37,775 nt of DNA from Campylobacterales bacterium (GTDB lineage: Bacteria > Campylobacterota > Campylobacteria > Campylobacterales > Nitratiruptoraceae): NCBI GenBank assembly GCA_027024145.1, contig JALVTF010000040.1, positions 1 through 37,775 of the forward strand. Direction: 5' to 3'. Below, piece after piece: positions 4,661-11,379 of the stretch (position 1 is its first letter; each line of letters opens with the position of its first letter). The notes under the pieces are model-generated. The model was not told the DNA's origin. It searched no databases and saw nothing but the letters and a program-made list of their open reading frames with translations. Both the position numbers and the translations under genes were made by a program.

Positions 4661-4706
4661 ACAAATTTTGTCTGCCTGTGATAAAATTGTGCAAAAAGGA
4701 TATACG

Positions 4707-5450
4707 ATGGCCACTATCACCATCATCGGCACCGGAAAAATGGCAGAAGCCATCATCGCCGGCCTGGCTGGCTCGTATGAGACGATCGAAGTCGTGGGTA
4801 GAAACGCCCAAGCACTCCAAAATCTCGCAAGCAAATATCCTATCCAGACAGCTCCTCTCGAAAACTTCGATATCGAGGGCAAAACTGTCATCCTCGCCGT
4901 CAAACCCTATGCACTCGAAGAGGTACGAAAACAGCTTTGCGGTAAAGCCCATATCCTCATCTCCATCCTGGCGGGCACATCCCTCGAAGCACTTCGTAGT
5001 ATCGATGCCCAATACTATGCTCGTGCCATGCCCAATATCGCCGCCTCAAAAAAAGCCTCCACAACGACGATAATGGGAGATAGTGAGGCCAAAGCGAAAG
5101 CTCTTGAAATTTTCGAAAAAATTGGCAAGACTATCGCGGTAGATACCGAAAAAGAGCTTGACATCGCCACGGCTATCGCAGGCAGCGGCCCTGCCTTTTT
5201 GGCACTTGCAGAAGAAGCCATCGTCGATGGCGGTGTAGCATGCGGCCTTACAAGAGAGAGCGCGAAAGCGCTGACCAAAGGCCTCTTTGCCAGCTACGCG
5301 GCACTTGCAGATATGCATCCGGCCGCTATCAAAGAGAGCGTCATGAGTCCGGGAGGCACCACCGCTGCCGGCATCAAAGCTCTGGAAGCGAAAGCCGTAC
5401 GCGCCGCCTTCATCGATGCGATCACCGCGGCATATGAAAGGACAAAATGA
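4707..5450 (+). CDS. proC: pyrroline-5-carboxylate reductase
   Basis: 'TIIGTGKMAEAII', 'RAMPNIAA', 'AGSGPAFLALAEEAIVDGGVACGL', 'VMSPGGTTAAGIKALE'. Start moved from 4668 to ATG at 4707 (MATITIIG). Confidence 0.96.
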   Translation: MATITIIGTGKMAEAIIAGLAGSYETIEVVGRNAQALQNLASKYPIQTAPLENFDIEGKTVILAVKPYALEEVRKQLCGKAHILISILAGTSLEALRSIDAQYYARAMPNIAASKKASTTTIMGDSEAKAKALEIFEKIGKTIAVDTEKELDIATAIAGSGPAFLALAEEAIVDGGVACGLTRESAKALTKGLFASYAALADMHPAAIKESVMSPGGTTAAGIKALEAKAVRAAFIDAITAAYERTK

Positions 5451-8400
5451 GAAGTTATTTGTTTCTAGTCTTTGTAATAATATTCAACACAGTATTGACT
5501 CTTCCTATTTTTGGTGGTGAAGATTACAACAAAGAAGCAGAGTTTCAATCTGTTTTTTCGCAAATGGTGCGAGGCGACATTAGCGCTACCGGTGCACCTG
5601 TTATCTGCGCCGACAACGGAAATGGACAGTGTGATTGGAATTACGATGGATATCTCTTTGACATCGACCCTTTACCATATAATGAATTAAATAGACCGAA
5701 CTTTTTCAATTCATCCGCAGCGGTGCTCAATCTTCCAGCAGGCGTTACTGGTTCAGATATCATATGGGCAGGGTTATACTGGCAAGGACATATCTTTGGG
5801 CTCGGTTCTCAACAGGATTTCAACAATGCCATTCAAGATTATGACAAAGTAATTTTTATAGACCCCAAAGGGAATTCCCACAATATCACTGCAAATAGAA
5901 CCTATTATTACGGCTATACAGAACGCGAAGTGCTTGAAACGGGAAAAAAAATGGATACAGATTCTTTTATGAAGGCGTAGCAGATGTTACCGATATAGTC
6001 CGGAATACTCTCGACCCTTCTAATCCAGTTTTTGCAGTAGCAAACATAAAAACAACAATGACGAAAGACTACTATATAGACGATAAAAAACTTCACGACT
6101 ATTTTGGTCACGCTGTCAGAGTGCGTTGGGGAAACTGGGGTGGCTGGTCTCTTGTAGTGGTATATAGAAACAGCAACGACCCTTTACAATTTATCTCACT
6201 TTACGACGGATTTAAATTTTTGATTCCTCCTTTTGGATATAAGGCAGAATTGGAAATCAAACTCCCAGATAATAGTTTTTATACACCACCATATGGAGAT
6301 ATTAAATCCAAAACAATTATTTTTAGTGCAGGTGCCGAAAGAAAAATCGATACAGATTATCTCTATATCTATAACAAAGACGAAGGTTACAAAACCGTCA
6401 GTAATGCCAAAAACCCCGAAAACAATATCATGAACGACACGATATCATATTTAGGACAAAATATTTCAAACTTTCGTGACTTTAACCCCGGGATAGATTT
6501 AGATGTTTTTGATACGTCAAACATTCTTGCACACGGACAGACAACCACGAAAATCAAAATCACTATGAAAGCGCTTAAAAGTATGGCGGATCAAACGTTT
6601 GTAGGATTTGTGGGCATTGCAAACGAAGTGTACGAACCAAAAATCTGCTATCTTGAGACTCTGTACGACAAAAACGGAAACGAAATCAATGGAACTTCCA
6701 TTGTAAAAATAGGCGACACTCTTACAGCCGAAATGACATTGCGCAATATCGATTACGAAACGGCACGCAATGTCCGTATCATCCGAACGTTTGACGATAA
6801 CGAGACATCGTATGTGACAAACAGTGTTCAGATTAAAGACCTGGGGTATCATAACCTTATACATATAGCAGATAATCACCAGTTAAGCAACGACAATTTA
6901 GAAGTCACCATCGATCAAGGCACAGTAGGTGATGTAAATGAAACCAATGTCACAATCGGTCCGTTCGGTCTAGGAGATGATAATGAGTTTCCACCTTGGG
7001 AATCAAGTTATCCAGTGTATAAAAAAGAAGCTATACTACGGTATCAATTCCATGCTGAAACAAGTGGCGCGTTAGAAAATATTTACAATACACATTACTA
7101 TTTCAATATTTTCGGATACACAGGTACCGTAGAAGGAACATTGCCGAAATGTACCGACTTCAACAATACCTACATCATCTACGAACCCAATACAGGTGTC
7201 ATCAACGTCACCAATCCAAATTTCTCAGGCTCGCAGGTCTCCACAGACGCCAACAGTTCCCAAAACGCGCTCTATACGCAAGTAGCGGGGACTTCATTTG
7301 CAACTAAAGCAATCGCACTCAAACACCCTCCAGCCCTCAACGAAACGAGCGTACCTCTCAAAAGAAGTCATGCACTCGCGGAACTCGAACTCGTCAAAGC
7401 CATTGGCAATACCGCTTGTAAAAACGCCATCGGCGTACATGTCACGCAAAACGCCAAACAACTTATCTATTTCAATGACCATAACAGCGTCGCAACGACG
7501 TTTACCGCAAAGAAAGCCTCCAGAGGTGTGCGTTTTCGTGCACGGTATTTCAAATGGATCAATCTCATGTCCGACCACTCTGTGCACTGTTTGCACCCCA
7601 ATCAATATAGCTCGCGTTTCCCCGGTGTCCCACAGTGTCTCGTGCGGGGAAACAGCAGATTGAAAGTACGCAAACTCAAAAAGATTTTCGGTCAGAACAA
7701 TCCATGCTTTACAAACGCTCTGGGAAATCCTTGCCGATCCAGCGGTAGAGGCTCACGAGCCCCATACAACAAACACGACGGTACCGACTGTCTGGCATGT
7801 CTAATGGATCACAGCGATCAGGTCTCCTATTCATGCTCTATGGATGCGTTCGCTATCAGACCTGCTACGTACGCGATCGACGTGAACGACACGTTCTTGA
7901 TAGGAAAGCGCTCCTATAGACTCGACATCAATGCCACACCCCTTGGATCGACGCAAAATCTCGCAGACTACAACGTCACTTTTACAAGTTCCAACGCCGA
8001 TACGAACATCACCACAAAACTCTTGCCAAAACCCGGCTGCCAAGGACCGGCCGATGCCAACGAAACCAACAACCTTTCCGGCACGAACGTCGTTTTTTCC
8101 GACGGCGCAGCCTCCACAAACAGCTACACGTTTCATGATATCGGAGAGGTCAATCTCTCCATCGTAGACAACTACTGGACCAAAATCGACCAAAACAAAC
8201 GAGATAGACACAACAATATCGTCAACGACTGTATTCCCAATAGCGCATCCAACTCTCCTTCCAGTGGTAAAGTGGGATGTATGACACGAGGATGGAAAAA
8301 ACTCGAATTTCATCCAAAAGATTTCAATCACACCGTGGCACTGACAAACTTCATCCCGGCTGCATCCTTTACCTATCTCTCGAACGATCCGAACATGTAC

Positions 8401-9381
8401 GCTCGCTATGATATCACCATTACGGCCAGACTCGCTGACGATTCTGCTGCACGTAACTACGTCAAATCCTGCTATGCAAGGGATATCAACTCTACCTTGA
8501 ATCTCCTTAGCAACCAGACGTTGGGCTGGTCGGATATGGCGCATCGCCTCATCTTTTTCGACGATCCTGCACACTACTCTTTGCACGGCCTTGGAGCCGG
8601 AAACAATTATGTGCGTGCAAGCAGCGTCACTTTCGATGTCAAAGAATCTAACTTCACCACAGGCAGCATGGCGACGATTCCTTTGCGTTTCAATATCGAA
8701 CGCAATGTCTCTATACCGGATCTACCAATCATTTTTCATAAAAACGACTACAACATCTCCACGAGCGAAAAACCCTATACAGGCGCCATCAAACTCGTAC
8801 ATGGCGAAGACTTCGATAGAAGCAGCGATACCAATATTACCTTCGTCTATGGAAGGCTCGATACGAACAACGAAGAGCAAAACACTATCACGGGCAGCGA
8901 CGGTAACGTGACCGTGCTCTATGAAATTTACAATCCTCTCTCCGTTGACGCGACGGGCAATATCGTCCCCAAAGTCAATCTCCCGCTTTTTGGCAGCATG
9001 ACGCGCAGTCCCAACAACCCCAACTGGCTCATCAACAATCAACACACACTCGCCGAAGGTAATATCAACAACATCTACTATCAAGGTACCAACGTATTCG
9101 AAACGGGTGCGGGAACGGTACGCATAACCCAAGATAGCTATGCAAACGGTAAACACGCACTCAAGCTTCACTACGGGGGCTCCAATTATCCATATCTTGC
9201 CACGATGGATGTGAATACATCCGACTGGCTCGTGTACAACAAATACAATCAAAATGCTGCAACGGTACCTTTGCATACCAAATTCATACGAGCCGGAAAA
9301 TGGATGGGTGTAGGAAGCGACATCAACGGTACGATAGAATCGAACCAGAGCCAGATAAACAGATATAGGATAGACTGGTGA
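5447..9381 (+). CDS. giant secreted/surface protein, MshQ-like (DUF6701-type 'FAIRP' region), encoded in two frames (5447..5980 and 5950..9381) joined by a -1 frameshift at an A8 tract
   Basis: N-terminal signal peptide 'MRSYLFLVFVIIFNTVLTLPIFGG'. Frame continuity across 5944-5951: '...REVLETGKK|NGYRFFYEGVADVTDIVRNTLDPSNPVFAVANIKTTMTKDYY...' reads as a continuous domain ('WAGLYWQG', 'ADVTDIV', 'GGWSLVVVYRN', 'LYDGF'). C-terminal part 'YSCSMDAFAIRPATYAIDV'. Spliced product would be 1311 aa. Confidence 0.75.
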
Positions 9382-10058
9382 GAAACGCATTCGGCCTTAT
9401 CGAACTGCTGTTTGCCATCATCGTCATGAGTGTGGCGATGCTGGCTATTCCACCGATTCTCGAGCAGACCACATCGAATATCAACGAAATTCTCAAGCAA
9501 GAAGCGATATTCCAGGCTTATCGTACCATCTACACAATAGAGACATACAAATGGGATGAAAAGACCACCCTCGAAGGTTCCACTTCTACCGGAGTGATCA
9601 ACATTCCCCACATTCTCGATACCACCAATGGCGATACTGAACTCAACCGCACCAACCCCGCTTCCGTCGTGCGCCAAGGCAATTTCAATGTATTTACACG
9701 CCGTACCTTCTTCCCCAGTCCCACCTATGCATCCACTACTCTTGGTCTTGATGCAGGAGAGACACAAAAAGACGATATCGATGATTTTAACGGTAATATA
9801 GACATTATCAACAAAAGCACCGGCAACTTCGTTATCGATATGCGCATCAGACAAAATATCTACTACATTAGCGATAACACCAACTACAGTGCGAACAATA
9901 TAAACATCAATATCAACGCAACACCTGCCACAGCTTCCACAAATATCAAAATGATCGACATCAACGTCACGGACGCAAGCGGCGGAGCCATTCTCGTCAT
10001 GCGTGGGTTTACCTGCAATATCGGTGCAGCACCTCTTTTGAAGAAGGATGCACTGTGA
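9378..10058 (+). CDS. prepilin-type protein (type IV pilus minor pilin-like, MshD-like position)
   Basis: N-terminal methylation-type segment 'MRNAFGLIELLFAIIVMSVAMLAIPPILEQ'; GTG start overlapping upstream stop (GTGA). Confidence 0.8.
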   Translation: MRNAFGLIELLFAIIVMSVAMLAIPPILEQTTSNINEILKQEAIFQAYRTIYTIETYKWDEKTTLEGSTSTGVINIPHILDTTNGDTELNRTNPASVVRQGNFNVFTRRTFFPSPTYASTTLGLDAGETQKDDIDDFNGNIDIINKSTGNFVIDMRIRQNIYYISDNTNYSANNINININATPATASTNIKMIDINVTDASGGAILVMRGFTCNIGAAPLLKKDAL

Positions 10059-10948
10059 GAAAAGGGCTCACTCTCATAGAACTCGTTTTTGTCATCGTGG
10101 TGTTTGGTATATTGGCAAGCATCGGAAGCGAAGTCATTGCCAAACTCTACGAAAACCGCCTCATCGCCCAAGCCACACAAGAAGCGAGCGACCGTGCACA
10201 GTTTGGACTAGAAACCATCGCCAAAAGATTAATGTATCGCGTCAAGGATAGTGAAATAGCACGTAAAAGCAGCAACCCTCTCGGCACGGCGATTACACTG
10301 AGTTCCACCGTCACCGATAGGGACATTTTAGAGTGGATTGGGTACGCATTCGAAGCGATGCGGGGCAATTGGAACGCGACACTTTCATACAACCAACCGG
10401 GATTTTCGGGACTTTGCGATCTCAATACGAGTGATAAAACCAAACTCGTCTCTCCGGGAAGCGATTTTTCTAAAGCGAGGTCTATCATCCTCAGCACCTC
10501 CTATAACAGTGTCGATCTCAACAATAATAACAGTGGAGCCGCCGTCATTTTCAAAGGAGGATACGTTGCGGGTCACGACCCTTTGACGGGGTATTTCACA
10601 TCACCCTATCCGGATGTTTATAAAGTGCATCGTCGCAATAACACATCGCTCACGTTCGAAAACACAGGATCGAAAACACTCTATGAACACTACTACCTCG
10701 TCTACTCGGCTTATGCAATAGTCCCGAGACTTACGGCACAGGGGGATTACAATCTCACACTGTACTATGACTATCGACCTTGGATGGGACAAAACTACAC
10801 GCAGGGCAAACATAAACTTCTCTTGGCACACGTCTCACGTTTCAAATTTCGCAAAATCGACAAAGCCGTCGAACTTTTACTATGTGCCACGAAAAAAATT
10901 TCAAACGATTTCAATGTGACTATATGCGGTAAAAAGGTGGTGTTTTGA
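10055..10948 (+). CDS. prepilin-type N-terminal cleavage/methylation domain protein (MshO-like position)
   Basis: 'MRKGLTLIELVFVIVVFGILASIGSEVIAKLYENRLIAQ' classic class III signal; GTG start in GTGA overlap. Confidence 0.88.
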   Translation: MRKGLTLIELVFVIVVFGILASIGSEVIAKLYENRLIAQATQEASDRAQFGLETIAKRLMYRVKDSEIARKSSNPLGTAITLSSTVTDRDILEWIGYAFEAMRGNWNATLSYNQPGFSGLCDLNTSDKTKLVSPGSDFSKARSIILSTSYNSVDLNNNNSGAAVIFKGGYVAGHDPLTGYFTSPYPDVYKVHRRNNTSLTFENTGSKTLYEHYYLVYSAYAIVPRLTAQGDYNLTLYYDYRPWMGQNYTQGKHKLLLAHVSRFKFRKIDKAVELLLCATKKISNDFNVTICGKKVVF

Positions 10949-11379
10949 GAAGAGCCATTTCAATGCTGACGGCCATTATATTCATACTACTTGTTGGTTT
11001 ATTGCTGGCATTTGCCATCAACTCTTTGACCACATCGGTCAAACGTACTACCGATATCTACACCATCGAACAGGCGCAGATATTGGCCAAAAGCGGCACG
11101 GAGTATGCCATCCTCGCGGCCCAAGGACACAATTTCACTTCAGGCTGTTTGCAACATATCAATATCAACTACCAAAATACCTACGATATCAACATCACGA
11201 TTCACTACATAGGCAAAGGCTTTCCCGCCGGTTGCGGTCCATACATTCTTTCGAACTCTTTGCAGACGAAGGACTCCAATGGAACCGCTATTATCGATAC
11301 CGTCGTCAGCCTCAAACCCTCTCTCCAGACGGACGAAACACATATCTCCTACGCTCGCCGCACCATCCAAAAACTATAG
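10945..11379 (+). CDS. PilX/MshP-like pilus assembly protein
   Basis: Hydrophobic N-terminus 'MRRAISMLTAIIFILLVGLLLAFAINSLTTSVKRTTDIYTIEQAQILAKSGTEYAIL' resembling PilX-N/MshP proteins; TTG start in TTGA overlap. Confidence 0.7.
   Translation: MRRAISMLTAIIFILLVGLLLAFAINSLTTSVKRTTDIYTIEQAQILAKSGTEYAILAAQGHNFTSGCLQHININYQNTYDINITIHYIGKGFPAGCGPYILSNSLQTKDSNGTAIIDTVVSLKPSLQTDETHISYARRTIQKL

Follow-up and report, generated by a model that had tools for sequence, protein, structure and literature searches.

The window analysed here is a stretch of 37,775 nucleotides from a Campylobacterales bacterium (contig JALVTF010000040.1 of assembly GCA_027024145.1). The closest named relative is Nitratiruptor sp. 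MAG S143_89 (WGBB01000018), and we infer that the source organism is a Nitratiruptor of vent-type habitat. The gene order is lon, a bamD-like gene, proC, a gene for a giant protein, three pilin-like genes, an hpf-like gene, a helicase gene and an M16 peptidase gene (Table 1), and the neighbourhood from lon to the M16 peptidase gene is kept throughout the family and even in Sulfurospirillum. The ATG of the giant gene at 5447 overlaps the proC stop codon (ATGA, 5447-5450), with AAAGGA visible upstream by eye, and at its other end the giant gene shares its stop with the start of the first pilin-like gene (GTGA, 9378-9381). These two overlaps suggest translational coupling in an operon.

Table 1. 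Features of the giant gene and its operon (positions in the window)
Feature	Position	Strand	Evidence
proC (pyrroline-5-carboxylate reductase); overlaps giant gene start; intact despite an in-register A7	4668..5450	+	Pfam P5CR_dimer, 5e-29
Giant gene, 5' fragment: signal-peptide-like N-terminus and N-terminal domain, 177 aa, out of frame past the A tract	5447..5980	+	homologous to ortholog N-termini
Giant gene, 3' part, -1 frame: probable diverged MshQ/DUF6701-type secreted beta-rich protein	5938..9381	+	DUF6701 match below cut-off; low-confidence model
Two-frame open interval containing the frame change	5938..5977	+	stop codons: 5935 in the -1 frame, 5978 in frame 0
A8 tract at the frame break	5944..5951	+	only homopolymer of at least 7 in the gene; missing from seven orthologs read as DNA
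Pilin-like protein 1; GTG overlaps giant gene stop	9378..10058	+	N-terminus AFGLIELLFAIIVMSVAMLAI; conserved downstream neighbour
Pilin-like protein 2 (N-methylation motif)	10055..10948	+	PF07963, 7.6e-5; conserved neighbour
Minor-pilin-like small protein (PilX/MshP-like by eye)	10945..11379	+	conserved neighbour

Neither fragment of the giant gene passes a cut-off in Pfam or NCBIfam. In a profile search of the family genomes, DUF6701, which we take to be the MshQ domain, scored 18.4 bits at 7984-8499 of the window copy, below the cut-off of 27; the nearest ortholog scored 23.1, and scores above 27 were reached by several other family members, among them the G012 ortholog. Three pilin-like genes lie directly 3' of the giant gene, as in the minor-pilin operons of MshQ-like DUF6701 proteins, which likewise combine a large exported beta-rich protein with pilin-like genes. 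The locus differs from those systems in the sub-cut-off score of the window copy, in that the giant gene precedes the pilins and in the placement of the operon between proC and hpf. Our best functional guess from these sequence features is that the giant protein may be an MshQ-like pilus-associated or surface protein. Its AlphaFold2 model has a mean pLDDT of 56 and matched only generic multi-Ig or beta-sandwich proteins among PDB structures; given the poor model, we conclude nothing from it beyond “beta-rich”. Searches for sequence relatives of the giant protein in the PDB and for viral relatives found none, and an initial single-protein scan of the genome contigs gave no match.

A second DUF6701 protein is encoded in the same genome (G000:C32, L068:6643-9517) by an intact open frame of 1156 aa with two pilin-like neighbours, forming a paralogous operon. 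In one family member (G012:C3, L061), the giant gene is tandemly duplicated between proC and the pilin-like genes, with frames of 1327 and 1252 aa. Some orthologs (L073, L071) carry Calx-beta domains near the N-terminus, which indicates that the N-terminal architecture has been swapped between lineages.

Frame break at the A8 tract

The original prediction described a giant surface-protein gene split at an A-rich tract, and the sequence bears out its stops and frames. From ATG 5447, frame 0 reads GGA AAA AAA ATG GAT across the tract and ends at TAG 5978-5980, both as predicted. The -1 frame is preceded by an in-frame TGA at 5935-5937 and runs open to the TGA at 9379-9381, leaving about 40 nt within a 3.9 kb gene in which the frame can change. 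The A8 run, with GGG (5941-5943) before it and T (5952) after it, lies inside this interval, a placement expected by random coincidence in about 1% of cases. Because the break is confined to these few nucleotides and they hold the gene's sole run of at least 7, a slippage-type event at the tract is its natural cause.

Read-through would give a product of 1311 aa (168 + 1143, the latter counted from 5950), matching the predicted length. Homology backs the join: on the upstream side, frame 0 can be aligned to orthologs over residues 5-145, and past the break FFYEGVADVTDIV of the -1 frame is aligned with YTYAAFSDITDIV. The heptamer A_AAA_AAA (5944-5950) is in the predicted register; this is weak evidence, as an in-register heptamer is expected for any A8 with a probability of 2/3. 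An arrangement as two separate proteins was rejected, since the candidate start ATG 6058 has neither a Shine-Dalgarno sequence (by eye) nor a signal peptide.

Matches to the giant protein occur in 18 of 22 genomes of the family, and the proC-linked family copies each run as one open frame, 932-1732 aa long and free of internal stops. Across the class, 130 of 298 genomes have a match, with no internal stops among the matches listed. We fetched the short class copies (frames of about 1040 aa or less) from eleven genomes together with one contig-edge fragment, and in none of those fetched does a separate N-terminal piece lie in a different frame. For the most part they are architecture variants, each beginning directly behind a signal-peptide-like sequence of its own; one includes masked N's, and the N-terminus of another was not resolved. 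A further copy (G247) lies at a contig edge. The window copy is the only split one found among the family and class copies examined. Read at the DNA level, none of the seven nearest orthologs has an A tract at the homologous site, and sequence conservation near the break is low among orthologs in general. The comparison of tract and frame in orthologs, proposed with the original prediction, shows the split in the window copy only and no conserved slippery site among the orthologs read.

Possible causes of the break

We favor, with a probability of about one half, a real lineage-specific change in tract length that silences the giant gene, possibly reversibly. The break falls within 40 nt around the only run of at least 7, the copies of the same genus, the family and the class are single open frames, and the seven nearest orthologs lack the tract. 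The other window genes tested are full length even with three further A8/T8 runs among them, and A runs of at least 9 are nearly absent family-wide, a pattern that instability of long runs, or selection against them, would produce. All 1143 downstream codons are open and all invariant residues are aligned, which suggests that the lesion, if real, is recent. However, the still open 3' part could also mean continued expression, the only G8 run in the genome splits a second gene (hypF-like) by a shift of the same sign, and from the draft consensus alone a real indel and a miscall look alike.

Under a tract-length indel, the minor-pilin operon would encode a large MshQ/DUF6701-type protein, beta-rich, exported and probably displayed at a pilus tip or on the cell surface, whose gene has been interrupted in this genome by a one-off length change of the poly-A run. 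Translation would stop after 177 aa and yield no more than a signal peptide and a portion of the N-terminal domain, a product that is probably non-functional. The next 3.4 kb would go untranslated, and expression of the coupled pilin-like genes would probably be lowered as well. Rare slippage of polymerase or ribosome on A8 might still provide traces of full-length protein, without being selected.

The next candidate, which we consider unlikely though a good deal less so than those that follow, is a draft consensus off by one base in a homopolymer, with the gene intact in the organism. The genome is a draft of 1.53 Mb in 102 contigs (91.8% complete). On both strands of the whole genome there are 120 A runs of length 8 and 3 of length 9, and this low A9/A8 ratio (0.025) could point to miscalled runs. 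However, runs of at least 9 are sharply depleted in the 21 relatives too, with a ratio of about 0.01-0.14 in those for which it was computed and of 0.057-0.102 in near-closed genomes of the same genus; the drop from 8 to 9 is slightly less steep in the relatives, and the deficit here is borderline (binomial P 0.015-0.07). Long A runs are therefore avoided across the family, and the drop is in itself no sign of a bad assembly.

A systematic homopolymer error was rejected. The Pfam-scanned window genes are full length, including those that hold the other three A8/T8 runs. Of the 95 A/T runs of at least 8 fetched from the genome, the six strongest candidates besides the giant gene were read and turned out to be chance frames or boundaries between genes, which leaves the giant gene as the only convincing split of one protein among those read. 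A screen run automatically over A/T runs of this length was uninformative by itself, because random positions gave hits in 110 of 773 cases.

The hypF-like gene bears on the same question. It is split at C58:13358-13365 (G000; L119:377-2169, minus strand), with zf-HYPF in the 5' part and a weak HypF_C_2 in the 3' part, and in most relatives the protein of about 590 aa is a whole single frame, with no G tract where it was read. This second split at a long homopolymer makes homopolymer miscalls more probable, and its shared sign fits either error or a slippage bias. In a Nitratiruptor genome consisting of one contig (G001, L172), frame changes likewise disrupt a hypF-like paralog located upstream of a true hypF; that break is at another place and has no homopolymer. 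Natural decay of the hypF-like gene is therefore also possible.

Phase variation, with the A tract as a hypermutable on/off switch of a pilus-associated surface protein and its coupled pilin-like partners, seems to us improbable. It would suit a surface protein at a strongly diversified locus that is broken at its longest homopolymer, and the in-frame allele could rank among the longest A runs of the genome, which has only three runs of 9. On the other hand, contingency tracts are usually longer than A8, the seven nearest orthologs read lack the tract, no OFF copy turned up among the class copies checked, and intact housekeeping genes in the window carry runs of at least 8, which argues against high instability of A8. 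The analogy drawn in the original prediction with homopolymer switching in Campylobacterota does hold in that a homopolymer marks the frame break of a gene for a surface structure; it is weak for A8, since the Campylobacter cases described in PMC8355987 mainly involve G/C tracts, long ones as opposed to an unconserved A8. More speculative still, and improbable, is a scheme in which a free-living vent member of the Campylobacterota uses a short poly-A run to switch a fast-diversifying pilus-adhesin gene on and off: residual slippage would give a little full-length protein beside a secreted 177-aa form, and coupling would switch the minor pilins too.

Least probable, in our view, is recoding, in which A8 would let the ribosome shift to the -1 frame or RNA polymerase slip, giving a useful full-length fraction, with both forms in use. 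The heptamer is in register and the downstream frame is intact over its 1143 codons, and poly-A slippage has a clear bacterial precedent in Citrobacter rodentium tssM1, the clearest such case, where an 11-A run gives 20-25% frameshifting (PMC4256274). That gene, too, is a large cell-envelope gene with an early stop just past poly-A in which slippage could restore the frame (PMC4256274), yet its use is proven and its tract has 11 A's, compared with 8 in the giant gene, whose orthologs were read intact without the tract. Insertions by transcriptional slippage are reported to climb steeply with run length (PMC5574713), and E. coli RNA polymerase, as characterized in PMC6260861, requires a run of 7 T or more and has little propensity to slip on A runs. 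Little transcriptional slippage is thus expected at A8.

Classical programmed -1 frameshifting was the headline of the original prediction, and it finds no support here. The in-register A-rich heptamer resembles bacterial -1 sites (dnaX, IS elements, the A_AAA_AAR of magnesium chelatase), but the window site is unconserved and without their stimulators. We found no Shine-Dalgarno-like stimulator upstream of A8 by eye, and in pseudoknot-free folding the RNA that follows the tract does not exceed shuffled sequences in stability (z-scores 0.14, -0.32, -1.23 and 0.88), giving no sign of a stem-loop stimulator. A_AAA_AAA, moreover, is the weaker variant in E. coli, described as far less shift-prone than A_AAA_AAG (PMC5009743), and it also occurs in register in the intact proC and, within an A8, in the intact prmA of the same window. 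Given the non-conserved site, the absence of RNA structure in these folds and the heptamers in intact genes, we rejected programmed frameshifting; indel, phase variation and sequence error had been offered as alternatives in the original prediction. As a recoding finding, the split gene adds little.

Divergence of the surface locus

Relative to the closest relative in our comparison (G006), the flanks of the operon are 95-98% identical in amino acid sequence (Lon 97%, hpf product 98%, helicase 95%). Within the operon, identity is only 30-79% (proC 65%, giant protein 30% in its N-terminal part and 60% in the rest, pilin-like proteins 73-79%). Over 5501-7000, DNA identity with the relative is 53-61% with many gaps, and the GC content of this diverged stretch is 0.33-0.44, with a dip at 5801-7000. 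From these patterns, the proC-giant-pilin locus (4668-11379) looks like a diversifying or partly exchanged (mosaic) surface-structure island. A loss-of-function allele inside such a diversifying island would not be surprising.

If the break is real, one lineage of a widespread vent chemolithoautotroph would have lost, or would be switching, a surface protein associated with the pilus. The divergence of the operon relative to its flanks is more interesting than the frameshift: an operon that apparently occurs throughout the Campylobacterota, encodes pilin-like proteins and a giant MshQ-like protein and is set between conserved lon/bamD and hpf/helicase genes outpaces its surroundings in divergence, as would be expected of a surface structure on which phages, for example, exert diversifying pressure.
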